Made by a program: the position numbers and the translations under genes. Source: Flavobacteriaceae bacterium (GTDB lineage: Bacteria; Bacteroidota; Bacteroidia; Flavobacteriales; Flavobacteriaceae). Taken from it: 53,569 nt of DNA. Positions within the stretch are counted from its first letter, which is position 1, and each line of letters begins with the position of its first letter. The DNA is taken from assembly GCA_017858055.1 (NCBI GenBank), contig JAFMCA010000015.1, positions 1 to 53,569 on the forward strand, in the 5' to 3' direction. Under the pieces are notes generated by a model, which saw only the letters and a program-made list of their open reading frames with translations, made no database searches and was not told the DNA's origin. This document shows positions 21,926 through 30,941 of this stretch, one piece after another.

Positions 21926-22762
21926 TTATTTAGACCATTCTTCAATCGCTTTTTCATTCAATCGCACATAGTCTTGATTTCCAGCCTCAATCGCTAGTTT
22001 TAATGAAGTTTGTGAAGCAGCAATTGCAGCTTCATTTTCATTTAGAGCATGAAGGATGAGAGCTTGTTGGCGATACATCCAGTATTTTCCGCTATCCATC
22101 TCGATGGCTTTTGAAATCCAATCTTTTGCTTTTTTCAAATCACGTCCTGTTTCTCTGTAATAAATTGCTGCACTGTAATAATCCTGTGCTTTGGGTTCTC
22201 CTTGCATCGTTTTTTCAATCGAAGCCATGGTTTTAGAATCTGTTGGGACTTCCAATTTTAAAGAGGTTTGCGTTTTCTCCCATCTAAAGTTGAGCTGAGC
22301 ACCGTTTTGATCTAAATCGTCTATCGAAATGGTAAAACTTTCAACAGGGTTCTCAAGTGTAGTTGTTGGTATTTCGGCAACTGCAGCAACTGCTTTAGGA
22401 TCCCATTCTCCAGGAAGACCACCGTTATCGGTTTTGGTGTAAAAGAATACTTCCCACATGGAAACGCCTGGTCTGATAAAAATAGCATATTTTCCTGCTT
22501 CTAACTTTTGTCCACCGAGCACAACAGCATCACTAAATTCGATGGTGGTATTGGCATTTGCTCCTGCTCTCCACATTTCGCCGTAGGGAACCAATTCACC
22601 CATAATTACTCTGTTGCGTAGGGCAGGTCGGGAATAGTTGATGGTCACATCAGTCAGTCCAACGACTTGTTCAATTTTTGAAAAAGGACTCGGTTGAGGT
22701 GTCTGAATTTGTCCAAAACTAAATCCGCAGATTAGAATTGTAAATAAATAAATTTTTTTCAT
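21926..22762 (-). CDS. DUF2911 domain protein, secreted
   Basis: From ATG 22762 (MKKIYLFTILICGFSFGQ) this is a 278-residue protein with a Sec signal. The DUF2911 beta-sandwich (about residues 22-165) contains YGEMWRAGANANTTIEF and GKYAIFIRP, and the C-terminal ~110 residues are helical and TPR-like (AIYYRETGRDLKKAKDWISKAIEMD). A longer reading to 22795 is rejected because a -7 promoter box lies in that extension. The function of DUF2911 is unknown; a periplasmic role is inferred from the signal. Confidence 0.85.
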   Translation of the reverse strand: MKKIYLFTILICGFSFGQIQTPQPSPFSKIEQVVGLTDVTINYSRPALRNRVIMGELVPYGEMWRAGANANTTIEFSDAVVLGGQKLEAGKYAIFIRPGVSMWEVFFYTKTDNGGLPGEWDPKAVAAVAEIPTTTLENPVESFTISIDDLDQNGAQLNFRWEKTQTSLKLEVPTDSKTMASIEKTMQGEPKAQDYYSAAIYYRETGRDLKKAKDWISKAIEMDSGKYWMYRQQALILHALNENEAAIAASQTSLKLAIEAGNQDYVRLNEKAIEEWSK

Positions 22763-22773
22763 TGTTTTTTTTT

Positions 22774-22781
22774 CAAATATA
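22774..22781 (-). promoter_or_regulatory. -7 box deciding the DUF2911 start
   Basis: On the minus strand TATATTTG matches TANNTTTG and ends 11 bases before the ATG at 22762. Because transcription would start downstream of the alternative ATG at 22795, it supports the shorter protein. Confidence 0.5.
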
Positions 22782-22828
22782 TTCTTTTTGTTCATTAATC
22801 CCCCTAAAACAAAAGGCTTCCCAAACTA

Positions 22829-22844
22829 TTTTAACATGTTAAAA
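22829..22844. promoter_or_regulatory. 16 bp perfect palindrome upstream of the photolyase operon
   Basis: TTTTAACATGTTAAAA is fully self-complementary. It lies 61 bases before the first gene of the operon (GTG 22906), in the 143-base divergent region shared with DUF2911. A second inverted repeat, TGTTTAAT (22850-22857) with ATTAAACA (22872-22879), lies between it and the likely promoter. Both resemble operators for dimeric regulators. The regulator is not in the window. Confidence 0.5.
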
Positions 22845-22886
22845 AGTTTTGTTTAATTAATTTCAAATATTATTAAACATATTTTG

Positions 22887-22894
22887 TATTTTTG
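22887..22894 (+). promoter_or_regulatory. -7 box of the photolyase operon
   Basis: TATTTTTG matches TANNTTTG, 11 bases before the GTG start at 22906. There is no TTG at the standard distance upstream, as expected for a promoter that needs an activator, though this is only one explanation. Confidence 0.45.
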
Positions 22895-22905
22895 AAAAAA
22901 AAGTC

Positions 22906-23373
22906 GTGAAATTATATCGTTTAGAAACTGTTCAAAACCTCCCCATTTCTTCAGAACAAGCCTGGGATTTTCTTTCAGATCCAAAAAACTTAAAAACGAT
23001 CACTCCCGATTATATGGGATTTAAAATTCTGAGCGGCGAGGCATCAAAGATGTATGCTGGACAAATTATTCAATATATCGTAACCCCTTTGTTAAACATT
23101 CCGGTGAAATGGGTAACTGAAATTACGCATGTGGAAGAAGGAAAATATTTTGTGGACGAACAGCGATTTGGACCCTATGCATTATGGCATCATAAACATT
23201 TTATAAAACCCATTAAAAATGGAGTTGAAATGATCGATATCGTCGATTACAAAATCCCATTCGGTATAATAGGTCAATGGGTACACCCAATACTCGTGGC
23301 GCCTAAACTAAAAGAAATTTTTGAATACCGAAAAACAGCATTAATCAATCTTTTTGGAAACTACGAATCATGA
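22906..23373 (+). CDS. SRPBCC family protein, first gene of the photolyase operon
   Basis: A 155-residue protein of the START/Bet v 1-like SRPBCC fold, which forms a hydrophobic ligand cavity. The N-terminal strand and helix (YRLETVQNLPISSEQAWDFLSDPKNLKTITPDYMGFKI) are typical of the cyclase/dehydrase-like subgroup. It starts with GTG at 22906; no ATG is near and the -7 box fits. The next gene overlaps its stop by four bases (ATGA). Ligand unknown; presence in an operon of flavin photoreceptors might mean binding of a chromophore or membrane lipid, which is speculation. Confidence 0.82.
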   Translation: MKLYRLETVQNLPISSEQAWDFLSDPKNLKTITPDYMGFKILSGEASKMYAGQIIQYIVTPLLNIPVKWVTEITHVEEGKYFVDEQRFGPYALWHHKHFIKPIKNGVEMIDIVDYKIPFGIIGQWVHPILVAPKLKEIFEYRKTALINLFGNYES

Positions 23374-24071
23374 TAGAAAATAAATCCATACTAATCGTTG
23401 GTGGTAGTTCAGGAATAGGGCTGGCTTTAGCGACTCAGTTAGCATCAAAAAACAAGGTCTTTGTCGCGAGTCGCTCTAGCGAGGCTATACAACATTTGGA
23501 TGTTGAGCATATCGTTTATGATGCTACTCAAGACGAATTGGATACCAGTAAACTTCCTGAAGTACTTCACGGTTTTGTTTACTGTCCTGGGAGTATCAAT
23601 TTAAGACCGTTTAAAGGGATGAAACTAGAAGCTTTTCAATCTGATTTTGAAATTAACGTAATTGGAGCTGTACGATCTCTGAAAGCAGTATTGGGGCATT
23701 TGAACGCAAGTGGGAATGCTGCAGTGGTATTATACAGTACCGTTGCTGTCCAAACGGGAATGCCCTTTCATAGTTCAGTTGCTGCGTCTAAAGGAGCTAT
23801 CGAGGGTTTGACACGATCTCTTGCAGCAGAATTTGCTCCGCACATTCGTGTAAATGCAATAGCCCCCTCATTAGTAGATACTCCTTTGGCATCCAAATTT
23901 TTGAATAATGAGGTCAAAATGGAAAAAGCTAACGAGCGTCATCCTTTGGGTAGAGTTGGAAATGCAAATGAGATTGCTCAAGCTACAGCTTTTCTTCTTG
24001 GTGAAGAAAGCAGTTGGATGACGGGTAGAATATTACAATTGGACGGAGGAATAGGAAACTTGAAAACATAA
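23370..24071 (+). CDS. SDR family protein lacking the catalytic tyrosine
   Basis: A 233-residue short-chain dehydrogenase/reductase. The NAD(P) loop is GGSSGIG at 11-17 and the C-terminal RILQLDGG segment is normal. The active-site YxxxK is changed: K141 is present in VAASKGA but position 137 is Val (codon GTT) rather than Tyr, so standard proton transfer is not possible. My recollection is that SDRs next to photolyases in Bacteroidota share an aliphatic residue here, so this is likely a family trait, not decay. It overlaps the SRPBCC gene by four bases and lies one base before the photolyase gene. Confidence 0.85.
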   Translation: MIENKSILIVGGSSGIGLALATQLASKNKVFVASRSSEAIQHLDVEHIVYDATQDELDTSKLPEVLHGFVYCPGSINLRPFKGMKLEAFQSDFEINVIGAVRSLKAVLGHLNASGNAAVVLYSTVAVQTGMPFHSSVAASKGAIEGLTRSLAAEFAPHIRVNAIAPSLVDTPLASKFLNNEVKMEKANERHPLGRVGNANEIAQATAFLLGEESSWMTGRILQLDGGIGNLKT

Positions 24072-24072
24072 A

Positions 24073-25371
24073 ATGGAGAAGTATACCATTTTTTGGTTTC
24101 GAAGAGATTTAAGAGTTGAGGATAATCACGGATTTTTTAGAGCCTTGTCCGGTAAAAATAAAGTGATTCCAATTTTTATTTTCGATGAGAGGATATTAAA
24201 AAAACTACCAAAAAGTGACGCTCGATTAGAGTATATAACAGTAGCCTTGGGTACCATAGATAGTGCTATGAAGAGGAACAGATGCGGACTTGGAATGTAT
24301 CACGGTACCCCAGAGGCTATTTTTAAAAAAATCATTGAAACGTGGCCTATTGAAAAGGTTGTATGTAATGAAGATTACGAACCTTATGCTCGAGAACGAG
24401 ACACAGCGATTGCTACGCTACTTCAAACATACAACATCCCTTTTGAAACCTATAAGGACCAAGTTATTTTTGCTAAGGATGAAATTGTTAAGGACGATGG
24501 AACACCCTACCGTGTGTACACCCCTTATTCTAAAAGATGGTTGCATAATTTTTTTGAGAATACAGTTTCTGCATACCCCTCAGAGGAGCATTTAGATCGG
24601 TTGGCTTCCATAGAACAGCCACAACTGAATTTGGGTGATTTGGGATTTAAACCTTCCAAAGTACCTTCTCCTAAACCTATTTTTAACGACGAAATTATTC
24701 GTTCTTATGAAGATACTCGTAATTTCCCAGCAATAGACCAGACCAGTAAAACCGGAACTGCACTGCGTTTTGGCACGCTAAGTGTACGAGCCATGGTTCT
24801 AAAATCTGCAGCAGTTGAAAATCCTACCTTTTTAAAAGAATTGATTTGGAGAGAATTTTTTATGCAAATTCTATGGCATTTTCCCCATACTAAAAACGAT
24901 AGTTTCAAACCTCAATACGACCGAATCGAATGGAGGAATGACCCAGAGGAATATGAAAAATGGTGTCAAGGCAATACGGGCTATCCTCTGGTAGATGCGG
25001 GTATGCGACAGCTCAATCAAACTGGATTTATGCATAATCGAGTCCGCATGTTGGTTGGAAGTTTTTTATGTAAACATTTGTTGATCGATTGGCGATTGGG
25101 AGAAGCCTACTTTGCAGAAAAGTTATTGGACTATGAAATGTCGAGTAATGTCGGGAATTGGCAATGGGTTGCAGGTTGTGGAGTAGATGCGGCTCCTTAT
25201 TTTAGGATCTTTAATCCTACAGAGCAGATTAAGAAATTTGATAAAGACCATAGCTATATCCAAAAGTGGGTGCCCGAATACCAGGAGCTTACCTATCCTC
25301 AGCCTATTGTAGATCATAAATTTGCTAGGGAACGTTGTTTAAATACCTACAAAGCAGCATTAAATGCCTAA
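24073..25371 (+). CDS. phr: cryptochrome/photolyase family protein, probable CPD photolyase
   Basis: A 432-residue flavoprotein of normal length. The N-terminal antenna domain (1-130) starts [13 protein letters not shown]; the C-terminal FAD domain has [13 protein letters not shown] and [12 protein letters not shown]. The electron-transfer Trp triad is complete: W363, W340 and W287, in the same spacing as E. coli W382/W359/W306. The flavin-facing Asn is N359 and the signature [13 protein letters not shown] is exact. The Met in HNRVRM fits CPD-cleaving enzymes. It would repair cyclobutane pyrimidine dimers with blue/UV-A light. The next small gene overlaps its end by 8 bases. Confidence 0.92.
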
Positions 25372-25510
25372 GCGCATAGAAAAAAAGAATCTACCTCAAA
25401 AGGTATGTCCTACCTGTGATCGCCCTTTTAGTTGGAGGAAAAAATGGGAAAAGGTTTGGGATGAAGTCAAATATTGTAGTCAACGTTGTAAAAATGACAA
25501 ATCAAAATAA
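25364..25510 (+). CDS. DUF2256-type four-cysteine microprotein
   Basis: A 48-residue protein too short for usual ORF lists, between two photolyase genes: starts [18 protein letters not shown] and ends [11 protein letters not shown]. It overlaps the upstream gene by 8 bases and the downstream one by 17, which leaves little doubt it is translated. C15, C18, C38 and C42 form CxxC-x19-CxxxC, a probable zinc ribbon, with an aromatic and basic middle ([11 protein letters not shown]). I recognise it as DUF2256, a family often found beside cryptochromes. Function is unknown; nucleic-acid or protein binding is inference from the fold-like spacing. Confidence 0.85.
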
Positions 25511-26825
25511 AGAACAGATTAAAAATCCTAGTGTATTGGTTTGGTTGAGGAATGATCTTAGGGTAACCGACCAACACTCTTTTATCTCAGCGACAACCTC
25601 CGGAGCAAACGTTTTCGCCTATTACAGTTTTGATCCGAAACATTACGGTAATACGAAATGGGGATTTCCAAAAACAGAGGCTTTTAGAGCACAGTTTTTA
25701 ATCGAAACAATTACCGAACTTCAACAAAGTCTAGAAGCTTTAAACATCACGTTAATCGTGGAACAAGGTAACCCTGCAGAAGGCCTCCCCAAATGGATTG
25801 AACAATTGAATATCAAAACGATTTATTTTCAAAAAGAATGGACGAAAGAAGAACGTGAGGTAGAAGCCCAACTTAGAGAGGCGATCCCTGCTGAGGTCAA
25901 ATTTCAATCTCATTACGATCAATTTTTGTTTCATCCTGATGACCTTCCTTTTAAGATTTCTGCACTTCCAGAAGTATTTACTCAATTCAGGAAAGTATGT
26001 GAAAAACATAGTCACGTTCGAATTCAACAACAAAATTGTACTCCTTTACCTAAAGAAAATGTACTCCAGCAAAAATTTAAAATTCCTACGCTAAAGGATT
26101 TGGGCATAGACAAAAAAATTGCGCATCCCAATTCTGCTTTTCCTTTTAAAGGTGGAAATCTTGAGGCTAAGCAGCGACTCAATCACTATTTTTGGGACTC
26201 CAAAAAACTATCATTTTACAAACAAACCAGAAACGGTTTGATTGGAAAGGATTACAGTTCTAAATTCTCTGCATGGTTAGCAAATGGCTCCTTATCTCCT
26301 CGACAGATTTATTGGGAAATTATTGCCTATGAAAAACAAATTATAAAGAACCAATCCACCTACTGGCTAATTTTTGAATTGCTTTGGCGAGACTACTTCA
26401 AGTATATTTCGCTCAAACATCAAGACCGTATTTTTTATCTAGAGGGAATTTTACAAAAGAAGTACCATTGGGAGAACGATATCGAAAAAGTGAATGCTTG
26501 GATAGATGGAAAAACTCAAGAACCATTCGTGAATGCAAACATGATAGAATTAAAAAAAACAGGATGGATGAGTAATCGGGGTAGACAAAATGTGGCATCT
26601 TATTTTGCGAAAGAATTACTACTTGATTGGCGTATAGGAGCAGCCTATTTTGAGTCCATGTTAGTGGATTATGACGTCCATAGCAATTATGGGAATTGGA
26701 TGTATGTAGCTGGTGTAGGAAATGATCCTCGAGACCGAAAATTTAACGTTCGTTTGCAGGCAGAACGATATGATGAAGCGGGAAAATTTCAGAGAATGTG
26801 GAATCAAAAAACTCTTTTTGAATGA
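25494..26825 (+). CDS. DASH-family cryptochrome
   Basis: From ATG 25494 ([24 protein letters not shown]) the protein is 443 residues. An upstream ATG at 25416 would lie inside the DUF2256 gene and add 26 unconserved residues. The Trp triad is intact (W402, W379, W326), the flavin Asn is N398, and the C-terminal pattern [24 protein letters not shown] with KFQRMW is diagnostic of CRY-DASH. Family members bind FAD and MTHF, repair CPDs mainly in single-stranded DNA and may signal light. Its stop overlaps the next gene by four bases. Confidence 0.92.
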
Positions 26826-28354
26826 CCTTAAAACTCATTTTAGGGGATCAACTTAATCTTCAGCACCCTTGGTTTGAACAAGTCGATGAGAAGGTTGTAT
26901 TTGTATTGATGGAAATGCGTCAGGAAACGGACTATGTTCCCCACCACATACAAAAAGTTGTGGCTTTTTTTGGAGCGATGCGCAATTTTAATGAAGCCTT
27001 GCTCTCCAGAGGCCATCGAACCCATTATTTGACTTTAAATGATAAGGAGAATACACAACGTCTTGAGGGTAATTTAAGCCTTCTTTTAGCGCACTATTCG
27101 GCAGATAAATTTTCTTACCAAGAACCAGATGAATACCGACTAGATTTGCAGCTAAAAGATTTTTGTAATACACTTTCCATTCCGTTCTCCATGGAGGACA
27201 GTTGTCATTTCATGACTTCTCGAACGGAGTTAGCAACATTTTTTGAAGGTAAAAAACAATTTATACTTGAGTTTTTCTATCGCTACATGCGCAGAAAATA
27301 TAATCTTTTGATGAGGTTTGACCAACCCGAAGGAGGGCAGTGGAATTTTGATAAAAACAATCGGAATAAATGGAAAGGTACTCCACCTATTCCGCCCGCC
27401 TATCTTCCCGATGGAAAAAATTTAATGGCTTTAAAAGAAGCAATAGAAAAAGCAGGAGTAAAAACCATAGGATCCCTTAATGAAGAGGAGTTTCGCTATC
27501 CCCTTTCTAGGGAAGAGGCTTTGAAGCAATTGGATTATTTTTGTACCCATTTGCTAGTTCATTTTGGCGACTATCAAGATGCCTTACATACAGATGAGGT
27601 CAATCTTTTTCACTCTAGAATTTCCTTTGCATTAAATGTAAAAATGATTCACCCATTGGAGGTTGTCGAAACAGTAATCGCCTACTATCGAAAAAATCAA
27701 AAGGAGATAGCCCTCTCACAGGTAGAGGGCTTTGTTAGACAAATACTTGGTTGGAGGGAGTATATGCGCGGAATTTATTGGAAAGAAATGCCCGAATACG
27801 CCAAAACAAATGTGCTTGAGAACACCAACCCCCTTCCCAGCTTTTATTGGACAGGAAAGACAAAAATGAATTGTTTGCACCAAAGCATTACGAACTCCTT
27901 GGAACATGCCTACGCACATCACATTCAGCGGTTAATGATCACAGGAAATTTTGCATTGCTTGCTCAAATTCACCCCGATGCAGTCGATGAATGGTATTTA
28001 GGAATTTATGCTGATGCAATTCAATGGGTACAGATCACGAATACAAGAGGAATGAGCCAGTGGGCTGACGGAGGTATTGTAGCTACAAAACCCTATGTTT
28101 CGGCTGCAGCCTATATTCATAAAATGAGTAATTATTGTGACCGCTGTACTTATGATAAGAAAAAGCGAGTAGGGGAGGATGCTTGCCCATTTAACAGTCT
28201 TTACTGGAATTTTCTGGATGACAAAAAGCAGTATTTTGCCAAGAACAATCGTATGGCAATGATGCTTCGACTTTTAGAAAAAATCCAGGTGGACGATTTG
28301 GTTCAGATTAAGGAACGAGCCTCGCAAATTTTAAAGAATCCTGATGCCTACTGA
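26822..28354 (+). CDS. iron-sulfur bacterial (6-4) photolyase (FeS-BCP/CryB/PhrB type)
   Basis: A 510-residue protein of the FeS-BCP branch. The four cluster cysteines are C351, C439, C442 and C455, each exactly one higher than the published ligands of Agrobacterium PhrB (350, 438, 441, 454). The lesion-site His pair is H366-H367 in AYAHHIQR. The start [10 protein letters not shown] is the family's N-terminus. Such enzymes carry FAD, a 6,7-dimethyl-8-ribityllumazine antenna and a [4Fe-4S] cluster and reverse (6-4) photoproducts. It is coupled to neighbours by 4- and 11-base overlaps. Confidence 0.93.
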
Positions 28355-29828
28355 TCACATTCCAATAGGGTTAGTTTGGTTAAAGCGTGATTTAAGATTA
28401 CACGATCATGCAGCACTTTATCTTGCCTCCCAGCAGCATAAAAACATTTTGATGCTTTATGTAGTGGAGGATTCACTTCAGCAGGAATCGCATTTTAGCG
28501 AGCGTCATTTGGATTTTATCAAGCAATCAATTGCTGACATGAATCGGCAATTGAAAAACTTAAACACCAAAGTTTTTGTCGTTCAAGGTGAGGTTTTAGA
28601 CATTTTTGAACAATTGCAAAACACCTTTCGCATTGAAGCCTTGTATTCCCATCTAGAAACAGGAATTGGGTTGACATTTACTCGAGATAAAGCTGTAAAA
28701 AAGTGGTGTATAGAACGAAGGATTTCATGGAACGAATACAGGCAACAAGGAGTTTTTCGTGGGTTAAAAAGTCGTAAGAAATGGTTGCAATATTGGACCG
28801 ACCATATGAATGCGTCTCTTTATCCCTTTCCAAAAGAAAAAAAATGGATCAACGCAAATCTATTGGATAAACTTTACAGAGAATTCAAGGAAGTGTCTTT
28901 GGAAACAACCCCATCAAACCGCATTCAACCGGGTGGCGAAACCAACGCCCATCGGTACTTAAATTCCTTTTTTAATGGACGCTACATAAATTATCAAAAG
29001 CATATTTCCAAACCCGATCTAGCTCGTAAAAGTTGTAGCCGTTTATCTCCCTATTTGGCTTTTGGAAATCTTTCTATGCGTCAGGTTCTTCAAAGAACAG
29101 AAGAGGAGAAAGAATCAGGAAAAAAAGGTTTTGGAATTCGTGCTTTTGAATCCAGACTTCGATGGCAGTCGCATTTTATTCAAAAATTTGAGATGGAGTG
29201 TCAAATGGAATTCGAAAGCGTAAATAAAGGCTATCACCGTTTGATAAAACCTCTAAATAATGAAGTTGTATTAGCATGGGAAAAAGGTCAAACTGGAATT
29301 CCTATGGTAGATGCAGCGATGCGATGTTTGGTCTCCACGGGCTATTTAAATTTTAGAATGAGGGCACTTGTCGTTTCCTTTTTTGTTCATCAACTTTGGC
29401 AACCCTGGCAGGCATGTTCTGGATTTTTAGCAAGACAGTTTCTTGATTTTGAGCCAGGAATACACTTTCCTCAGCTACAGATGCAAGCGGGTGAAACGGG
29501 GATAAACACCTTGCGGATTTATAATCCTGTAAAAAATGGTCTGGAACACGACCCTATGGGACTTTTCACCAAACAGTGGCTTCCTGAACTTCGCGATCTT
29601 CCCATTGAATTAATTCATACACCCTGGGAAATCACTCCTTTCGAGGAAGGGCTTTACAATTTTAATTTAAAAAGAGATTATTTCGTTCCCATTGTAGATC
29701 TAGATCAAAGTCGTAAAAAAGCATCTTCAATTTTATGGGAGATGCAAAAAGATCCCTTAGTGAGGCAAGAAAGTAAACGTATCTTGGGAAAACATACTGT
29801 TCCTAGAAGAAAAAAAGAAATAGTTTAA
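28344..29828 (+). CDS. divergent photolyase/cryptochrome-like flavoprotein
   Basis: A 494-residue fourth paralogue with an antenna-like domain ([13 protein letters not shown] at 10-22) and a FAD domain ([17 protein letters not shown] near 232-248, [15 protein letters not shown]). The segment that normally reads SNxGNWQW is replaced by IHFPQLQM (373-380): by alignment the flavin Asn becomes H374, the first triad Trp becomes L378, and the third triad position is K302, with only W355 kept. The Asp at 368 is conserved. FAD binding is expected but photoreduction must use another route. It could be a sensor or an unusual repair enzyme. Confidence 0.85.
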
Positions 29829-30112
29829 TGAAAAATATAAAAACCTTATCTGAAATAGAAATTGATCGAATTATTGAGATGGCTTGGGAAGATCGTACCC
29901 CCTTTGATGCCATTTTAGTTCAATTTAATTTAAAAGAGCAAGAAGTTATTTCTTTGATGCGGCGTGAAATGAAACCGACAAGTTTTAAAATGTGGAGAGC
30001 ACGGGTTCAAGGTAGGGCGACAAAGCATCAAAAAAAGCGAGCTGAAGACACCCAAACCTTTCGATGTTCAAGACAAAAAGGAATCAGTAACAATAAAATA
30101 TCGAAGCGTTAA
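29828..30112 (+). CDS. DUF2805/TIGR03643 family small protein, last gene of the photolyase operon
   Basis: A 94-residue basic protein whose first ~75 residues match the DUF2805/TIGR03643 family: LSEIEIDRIIEMAWEDRTPFDAI, then LKEQEVISLMRREMKPTSFKMWRARVQGR. The predicted helix-turn-helix-like helices and Arg/Lys-rich tail suggest nucleic-acid binding, but this is inference. Its ATG shares one base with the preceding stop (TAATG). The C-terminal ~20 residues are poorly conserved and lysine-rich. Function unknown; repeated association with photolyases suggests a shared process. Confidence 0.85.
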   Translation: MKNIKTLSEIEIDRIIEMAWEDRTPFDAILVQFNLKEQEVISLMRREMKPTSFKMWRARVQGRATKHQKKRAEDTQTFRCSRQKGISNNKISKR

Positions 30113-30113
30113 A

Positions 30114-30941
30114 TCAATAACTAATTTCCACATTCATCCCCACATTAGCGGAGCCAATCTTAGACCAACTGCCCTGACTCACCTCACGTGCAATCAGTGG
30201 AGAGCCGAAAAATCCACCTGAAAAGAAGAGTTTGCCTGGGCCCAAATCTTCAATCCATTCAATCGAAACAAAAAAATCTTCATCAATAACGAGATCATAG
30301 GGAGTTAAATCTTTGGTGACAATTCCAGAGCTCACCTCGGTTTCAATGATGATATTTTCCTTCAATAATGTTGTGGTAGGCATTCCATCTTCAACAGAAT
30401 AAAAATTGAGACGAAAACGGATTTTACCGTAATCATTTTCCACAATAGAAATAGCAAACTTTTTAAGAATCATGGGTCGTTTTCTTTTTGAAACAACAAA
30501 GCCCATTTCATTGCCGAGTCTATTTGTGCTAAAAGCGGCGTAAAGTAATTTAGACGTAGTCTTATTCCCCAAAATTTTTGTTTGAAATTCGGTTCTCTTA
30601 GTAGTGAGCACGATTTCATCTAGAGCAGTAGTTTCCTCTTCCAAAGGAACGGTAAAGAGGTGTTCGTTTAAGAAATTTTCAACCACATAGGTTTTGGTTT
30701 TGAAACCAATCATAGAAAAGCGTAGAAGTGCTTGTTGGTGTAATGATGGATCAATTTCAAATTCAAAAAAACCCTCTTCATCCGATACGGTACCTTGGTT
30801 CTGATTGACTAATCCAATATTGACATAAGGAAGAGGTTCTTGAGTGGCGGCATCAACTACTTGTCCAACAATATTGGTTTGACCTAGATTGGGAAGCGTA
30901 TAGAAGAATACAAGGAGTAGGTATAAAAGAGGTTTGGGCAT
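30114..30941 (-). CDS. secreted protein with carboxypeptidase-regulatory-like domain
   Basis: A 275-residue protein with a Sec signal (residues 3-20) and one CarboxypepD_reg-like beta-sandwich (about 24-105: GQVVDAATQEPLPYVNIGL, then GTVSDEEGFFEFEI). This domain usually starts TonB-dependent receptors, but no plug or barrel follows; the remaining 165 residues form a beta-rich region. It lies 11 bases after murA and ends one base from the photolyase operon, facing it. Function unknown; likely cell-envelope. Confidence 0.78.
   Translation of the reverse strand: MPKPLLYLLLVFFYTLPNLGQTNIVGQVVDAATQEPLPYVNIGLVNQNQGTVSDEEGFFEFEIDPSLHQQALLRFSMIGFKTKTYVVENFLNEHLFTVPLEEETTALDEIVLTTKRTEFQTKILGNKTTSKLLYAAFSTNRLGNEMGFVVSKRKRPMILKKFAISIVENDYGKIRFRLNFYSVEDGMPTTTLLKENIIIETEVSSGIVTKDLTPYDLVIDEDFFVSIEWIEDLGPGKLFFSGGFFGSPLIAREVSQGSWSKIGSANVGMNVEISY

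Follow-up and report, generated by a model that had tools for sequence, protein, structure and literature searches.

Among described systems, the locus analyzed here comes closest to the light-induced photolyase region that LitR controls in Pseudomonas; according to the available portions of that report, P. mendocina carries a light-induced polycistron of phrB and a short-chain dehydrogenase/reductase (SDR) gene in the region of its LitR homologue, a MerR regulator of the LitR class, and folE and cryB belong to the wider light regulon of these LitR/PplR regions (PMC9758184). Several photolyase-family members within one marine genome are also known from Synechococcus, with eight members across 81 genomes; the part of that text available describes neither a four-gene operon nor a class resembling the fourth photolyase considered below (PMC9426592). 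Here we analyzed a stretch of 53,569 nucleotides (the window; contig JAFMCA010000015.1 of assembly GCA_017858055.1, positions 1 to 53,569) from a marine Flavobacteriaceae bacterium with a small genome, in which eight genes at 22906-30112, preceded by a conserved inverted repeat, probably constitute the DNA-repair arm of a CarH/LitR-like flavobacterial light and photoprotection regulon. As in the Pseudomonas regions, to the extent that their description is available, a photolyase gene is joined to an SDR gene and a LitR-class MerR regulator is present; unlike them, the window operon has four photolyase-family genes, including one for which we coined the label PHX, plus DUF2256 and DUF2805 genes, no LOV protein was seen here, the operator is common to crt genes and, in one relative, rhodopsin genes, and light induction is what we infer. 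The features are as follows:

22850-22879, plus strand: inverted repeat TGTTTAA-N16-TTAAACA, an exact copy of an operator recognized by its conservation among relatives
22887-22894, plus strand: TATTTTTG, a Bacteroidota-type -7 element between the operator and the GTG at 22906
22906-23373, plus strand: small SRPBCC/START-like protein with a GTG start; weak Polyketide_cyc match
23370-24071, plus strand: SDR-fold protein (PF13561, adh_short_C2) with Val at the catalytic Tyr position
24073-25371, plus strand: CPD-type photolyase retaining the canonical catalytic residues (PF03441 and PF00875, alignment, tree)
25364-25510, plus strand: DUF2256 protein of 48 aa with four Cys, zinc-finger-like (PF10013, E = 1.6e-21)
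25494-26825, plus strand: cryptochrome-DASH (TIGR02765, 504.3 bits against a cut-off of 317.05; PF03441 and PF00875)
26822-28354, plus strand: FeS-type (6-4) photolyase, DPRP (PF04244; PDB 7ykn)
28344-29828, plus strand: PHX, a distinct photolyase-like subfamily (PF03441 and PF00875; own clade; His at the flavin-N5 position, FAD-proximal Trp gone)
29828-30112, plus strand: DUF2805/TIGR03643 protein, probably helix-turn-helix (PF10985, E = 5.5e-35)

The coordinates of the open reading frames (ORFs) bear out the initial annotation, which placed eight co-directional genes here with, in gene order, a 4-base overlap, a 1-base gap, and overlaps of 8, 17, 4, 11, and 1 bases. Tight junctions alone carry little weight because other co-directional neighbors in the window overlap too (12900/12903, 14443/14450, 33887/33897, 44925, and 45859/45869). 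Scans over 22700-30400 returned 23 sigma-70 promoters versus 21.4 in shuffled sequences and 5 terminators versus 6.4, by which internal promoters and terminators are neither shown nor excluded, and the 3' end of the operon folded no better than shuffles (z 0.41). That the genes are one unit is indicated by the gene order kept among relatives together with the conserved upstream site.

The gene names given previously agree with Pfam and NCBIfam, and profiles, PDB matches, and the tree concur in assigning probable CPD (cyclobutane pyrimidine dimer), DASH, and FeS (6-4) photolyases. The pair PF03441 and PF00875 was found in three operon genes and PF04244 in one; the Polyketide_cyc match of the SRPBCC protein (E = 0.0016) lies under the Pfam cut-off. 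The DASH protein clusters with 1np7 and 6kii (support 100/100); photolyases of the DASH family act on CPDs in single-stranded or looped DNA. The top PDB match of the FeS-type protein, aligned over its full length, is 7ykn, labeled a 6-4 photolyase of the FeS-BCP type (500.9 bits), and the four cluster-binding Cys are conserved; judged by its sequence, the protein appears to resemble the FeS-BCP (6-4) photolyases (7ykn, 4dja, and 9hnk), and no clear difference from them was found. Searching the whole 2.0-Mb genome (95.87% complete) returned three genes with PF00875/PF03441 and a single PF04244 gene, none outside the operon, so every photolyase detected is located here; the missing ~4% of the genome could conceal a further one.

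We compared the cluster with 80 relatives, which are the best of at least 557 named candidates scoring against PHX and not a random sample; contig ends restrict some of these loci. The complete eight-gene order is kept in 11/80 loci, including the closest relative (L097), in which an outer-membrane-like gene (L097:5679-7037) is inserted between DUF2256 and DASH. Another 26 loci carry the rearranged set DUF2256-DASH-FeS-PHX-DUF2805-SDR-SRPBCC-CPD; within the locus, 10 have SRPBCC-SDR-CPD-PHX only and two PHX alone, and an SRPBCC homologue is present in 64. In other genomes the same genes are split over two or three units. Winogradskyella and Polaribacter clusters add a TetR-like gene, an ABC1-kinase gene, a flavin reductase, a DUF2867 protein, FolE, a glutathione-peroxidase-like gene, and TspO, and the window operon therefore appears to be a compact form of a larger photoprotection cluster. 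By these sequence comparisons, the eight-gene arrangement is evidently inherited, beyond chance. The suggestion in the initial annotation that the proteins are needed together as one complex did not hold up, given the split and partial (SRPBCC-SDR-CPD-PHX) arrangements elsewhere and how ordinary overlapping junctions are in the window; the comparison supports putative co-regulation and leaves a physical complex unsupported.

Co-occurrence was examined in 118 genomes of the phylum, or 117 without the window genome, leaving out the FeS-type proteins' own weak PF03441 matches and two C-terminal fragments of genome G011; the Fisher tests ignore relatedness. Of 34 DUF2256 copies, 25 have a photolyase within 1 kb and 28 have one within 10 kb. 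For DUF2805, 12/36 copies lie within 5 kb of a photolyase, 24/36 stand apart from any photolyase, and 4/36 fall within 10 kb of PHX. Of the 117 genomes, 31 have both DUF2256 and the FeS-type gene, 3 have DUF2256 only, 2 the FeS-type gene only, and 81 neither; in the phylum set, each of the 12 other genomes with PHX also has all three of DUF2256, DUF2805, and the FeS-type gene. The 14 control genomes include three with an FeS-type gene, two of which are the only ones where DUF2256 was detected; DUF2805 was detected in none. Nine proteobacterial loci were among the 19 plasmid loci fetched of 40 matches listed, and five of these nine have DUF2256 or DUF2805 near PHX. With relatedness uncorrected, the neighborhood counts sustain the association of both small genes with photolyases that had been proposed earlier. 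They also bear on the view that the cluster is a mere by-product of genome streamlining, its genes having no functional link except shared UV damage. The genome size of 2.0 Mb and the gene overlaps at other places in the window would suit that view; however, the same genes cluster in the larger genomes of Winogradskyella and Polaribacter, the upstream operator is conserved, and DUF2256 adjoins photolyases across the phylum and PHX in Proteobacteria, all of which make streamlining a very improbable explanation.

The operator motif was found by comparing the upstream regions of complete clusters. In the 80 loci (1.55 Mb), exact half-sites occur 86 times at a spacing of 16, once at 4, twice at 10, and never at the other spacings from 4 to 30; with one mismatch allowed, 110 sites were found in 71/80 loci. 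TAnnTTT[GA], a relaxed form of TAnnTTTG, which we take to be the consensus of the Bacteroidota -7 element, lies within 28 bp on one side of 99/110 sites, compared to 7.8% of random positions. Across 80 genomes of the family, there are 212 exact sites in 60 genomes, versus 8 for the reversed control. The copy at 22850-22879 is the sole match in the window at up to two mismatches; since shuffled windows average 1.37, the site is not significant from the window alone. The window genome has two exact sites in all, and a carotenoid operon resembling crtA-crtD-cruF has a one-mismatch site (G000:C23:5473-5502, L178) 143 bp upstream.

The genes beside the operator may point to its regulator. We inspected 23 sites in five genomes, covering all sites of four of them. 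A site separates a MerR-B12-like gene from crtI in 4/4 genomes (G151, G136, G195, and G189), and in G151 only, a Flavobacteriaceae genome, another lies between divergent rhodopsin (PF01036) and blh (TIGR03753) genes (L234:7742-9480). Further sites precede SRPBCC-CPD, a TetR-like gene, a 143-aa gene before DUF2805-FolE, a DUF2867 gene, a desaturase-like gene, and a GHMP-kinase-like gene. The window genome itself encodes a MerR protein with a B12-binding_2 domain and the Wx9EH and ExHxxG motifs, which we take to be those of CarH, as a CarH/LitR regulon would call for; this protein is 54% identical over 263 residues to the crtI-adjacent MerR of Flavobacterium xueshanense. The MerR-B12 protein, CarH/LitR-like, is thus favored as the likeliest regulator to bind the operator, which would make the operon responsive to light.

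A different candidate is the TetR-like protein (TetR_C_23), whose gene often opens the extended cluster and which would bind the operator in answer to oxidative or membrane stress, not light. It remains a candidate because TetR-like genes are the commonest first gene at the 110 sites (40, followed by the 143-aa gene at 32, SRPBCC at 21, and CrtI at 4, with 8 others and 5 sites lacking any), a count that itself weighs against a MerR-B12 regulator, and a homologue exists in the window genome beside an AarF-like gene. Yet the homologue is missing from 14/60 genomes with exact sites, 11 of which have two or more, and six genomes carry it without exact sites. Moreover, no TetR_N domain match was obtained for the protein of locus L108, and the sites at crtI and rhodopsin genes adjoin MerR-B12 or no TetR-like gene. 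We regard control by the TetR-like protein as unlikely; as the sole regulator it seems less likely given the 14/60 site-bearing genomes without its gene.

Several further observations count against assigning the operon to a MerR-B12-controlled light regulon. The MerR protein gave no PF02310 match at E ≤ 0.001, and its gene is on a different contig from the operon. Taken alone, the Flavobacterium loci (four related loci, one mismatch) are weak evidence for MerR-B12 binding, to which the wider sites added support. The second exact site of the window genome (G000:C45:19904-19933, L175) stands just before a Rieske-domain gene, which is not a known light gene, and one-mismatch sites in this genome are at the control level (12 versus 14 on both strands, the two exact sites counted); the crtA-crtD-cruF site is only suggestive for this reason. 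In relatives, exact sites precede fasciclin-like genes (L227, L231, L234, L238, L243, and L246, Pfam-confirmed only in L231), one site precedes an uncharacterized gene, a chaperone-like gene stands 127 bp from another, and some are without a gene in range. For the part assigned to PHX in the favored reading, the difficulty is that without its FAD-proximal Trp the protein may fail to be photoreduced by the usual chain.

Weighing these points, we still favor the CarH/LitR-like assignment, under which the eight genes would be one operon and a compact form of the Flavobacteriaceae photoprotection regulon. The operator, just upstream of the promoter element, would put the operon under the same regulator as crtI-crtB-crtZ and, in at least one relative, proteorhodopsin/blh. 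Light would release this regulator, whereupon the CPD, DASH, and FeS (6-4) photolyases would be made, plus PHX, a protein with the photolyase fold and a remodeled flavin and lesion pocket.

The initial annotation had called the fourth photolyase-like gene a divergent photolyase; membership in the family stands, and PHX proved to be more than a divergent paralogue, forming a distinct clade without the canonical catalytic residues. Orthologues with 39-52% identity are present in 12 other genomes of the 118, the next matches having 33% or less. In a tree of 49 FAD domains, in which some reference rows are long and partial, 32 PHX rows fall on one side of a single branch (support 100/100), apart from reference domains of CPD class I and III, DASH, Drosophila (6-4), and plant CRY2 proteins. 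PHX has both the DNA_photolyase and FAD_binding_7 domains of the superfamily, and its AlphaFold2 model predicts a complete photolyase fold (pLDDT 94.2), for which Foldseek gave 6kii as the best solved match (TM 0.82, 24% identity). The two Pfam domains and the fold are common to class I/III CPD photolyases and DASH proteins (1owl, 4u63, 2e0i, 1np7, and 6kii); unlike these, PHX has His for the N5 Asn and an altered lesion pocket, and stands in a separate clade.

Residue columns were anchored by 2e0i and the window CPD and DASH proteins. In 30/32 PHX rows, His occupies the flavin-N5 Asn position, and these 30 have also lost the FAD-proximal Trp; the two haloarchaeal rows keep both Asn and Trp at the flavin, as would be expected of an intermediate. 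In the lesion pocket, Arg (32/32), Phe (31/32), Ala (32/32), and Met (30/32) replace Glu, Asn, Met, and Trp, at positions that presumably correspond to E274, N341, M345, and W384 in E. coli numbering. PHX thus lacks the flavin-N5 Asn, the FAD-proximal Trp, and the lesion-pocket set of CPD photolyases, and its Phe337 and Ala341, aligned to 2wb2, occupy the positions of the catalytic His pair of animal/insect (6-4) photolyases, which we take to be H365/H369 of Drosophila. The middle (W355, 30/32) and outer (W312, 32/32) distal Trp are retained. The haloarchaeal PHX relatives that keep Asn and Trp are carried by plasmids L169 and L193; a stop interrupts the Halorubrum gene, which has been annotated as two separate genes. 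A literature search of limited, mostly open-access coverage found no PHX-like class, and PHX apparently represents a widespread, uncharacterized photolyase-like subfamily.

Its function is best approached through Deinococcus. In 7/7 plasmid records (L165 and L182-L187), PHX and an annotated uracil-DNA glycosylase (UDG) share one open frame of about 770-875 codons, and all 6 fusions scanned contain the DNA_photolyase, FAD_binding_7, and UDG domains. Because cytosines within dimers are prone to deamination, a fusion of a photolyase with a uracil glycosylase makes sense, and it favors a role at DNA lesions, in either photorepair or lesion binding. In Deinococcus strain QL22, dinB and a gene of the spore-photoproduct-lyase family adjoin the fusion. 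Most likely, PHX would act on DNA lesions, either repairing, as a photolyase, a different product or a deaminated one, or helping by binding lesions, alternatives between which sequence cannot decide. That PHX is a light-independent, photolyase-derived binder passing lesions to excision repair would account for the UDG fusion and for the loss of the FAD-proximal Trp and N5 Asn, but the distal Trp are kept (W312 in 32/32 and W355 in 30/32) and the modeled fold is complete and of high confidence, leaving this proposal doubtful. If PHX instead sensed light in the manner of a cryptochrome, with DUF2805 providing the DNA-binding output and PHX taking no part in repair, this might likewise explain why the canonical CPD-repair residues are replaced and why a helix-turn-helix-looking protein is translationally coupled to PHX in the window. 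Such a role is rather doubtful, as PHX is fused to a repair enzyme in Deinococcus, the window protein has no long C-terminal extension, and DUF2805 is often away from PHX (4/36 copies within 10 kb). The most far-reaching proposal would make PHX a DNA repair enzyme of a new, light-dependent class whose flavin is His-gated and which has no canonical Trp wire, directed at a lesion missed by CPD and (6-4) photolyases, e.g., deaminated uracil-containing dimers; DUF2256 and DUF2805 would be its DNA-handling helpers, and a B12 photoreceptor would switch the entire set in concert with genes for carotenoids and proteorhodopsin. In this joint form the proposal is speculative and unlikely.

As for the remaining partners, DUF2805 is predicted by AlphaFold2 to have a four-helix, helix-turn-helix-like core; Foldseek against PDB structures returned 97 matches, with helix-turn-helix proteins near the top but none at E ≤ 0.001 (best E 1.8). 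PHROGs yielded nothing useful for the three small proteins. In the open-access literature, we found no paper joining DUF2256 to a photolyase and none on TIGR03643, and the available portions of a text on DUF2805 do not mention photolyases. DUF2805 and the Cys4 protein DUF2256 are probable nucleic-acid-binding accessories. In classical SDR enzymes, the catalytic motif is S-x13-Y-x3-K. The window SDR protein (23370-24071) lacks it, with Val at the Tyr position, and Val or Ile occupies this position in 63/63 readable motifs (72 SDR ORFs, 9 of them unread by the pattern), so it is probably no ordinary dehydrogenase; the SDR and SRPBCC proteins would be probable redox or ligand-binding partners.

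As far as our limited literature search extends, the four-way set with PHX and the PHX-UDG fusion are new, as is the operator, though no search was aimed at the operator or at a flavobacterial light regulon. If the proposed reading is true, marine Flavobacteriaceae would gain a defined light regulon with a readable operator joining photorepair, carotenoid, and rhodopsin genes, and the unnamed families DUF2256 and DUF2805 would become testable photorepair partners. PHX would then stand for a widespread photolyase-like clade whose active site is non-canonical and which is fused to UDG in Deinococcus; its substrate would be a direct biochemical question.

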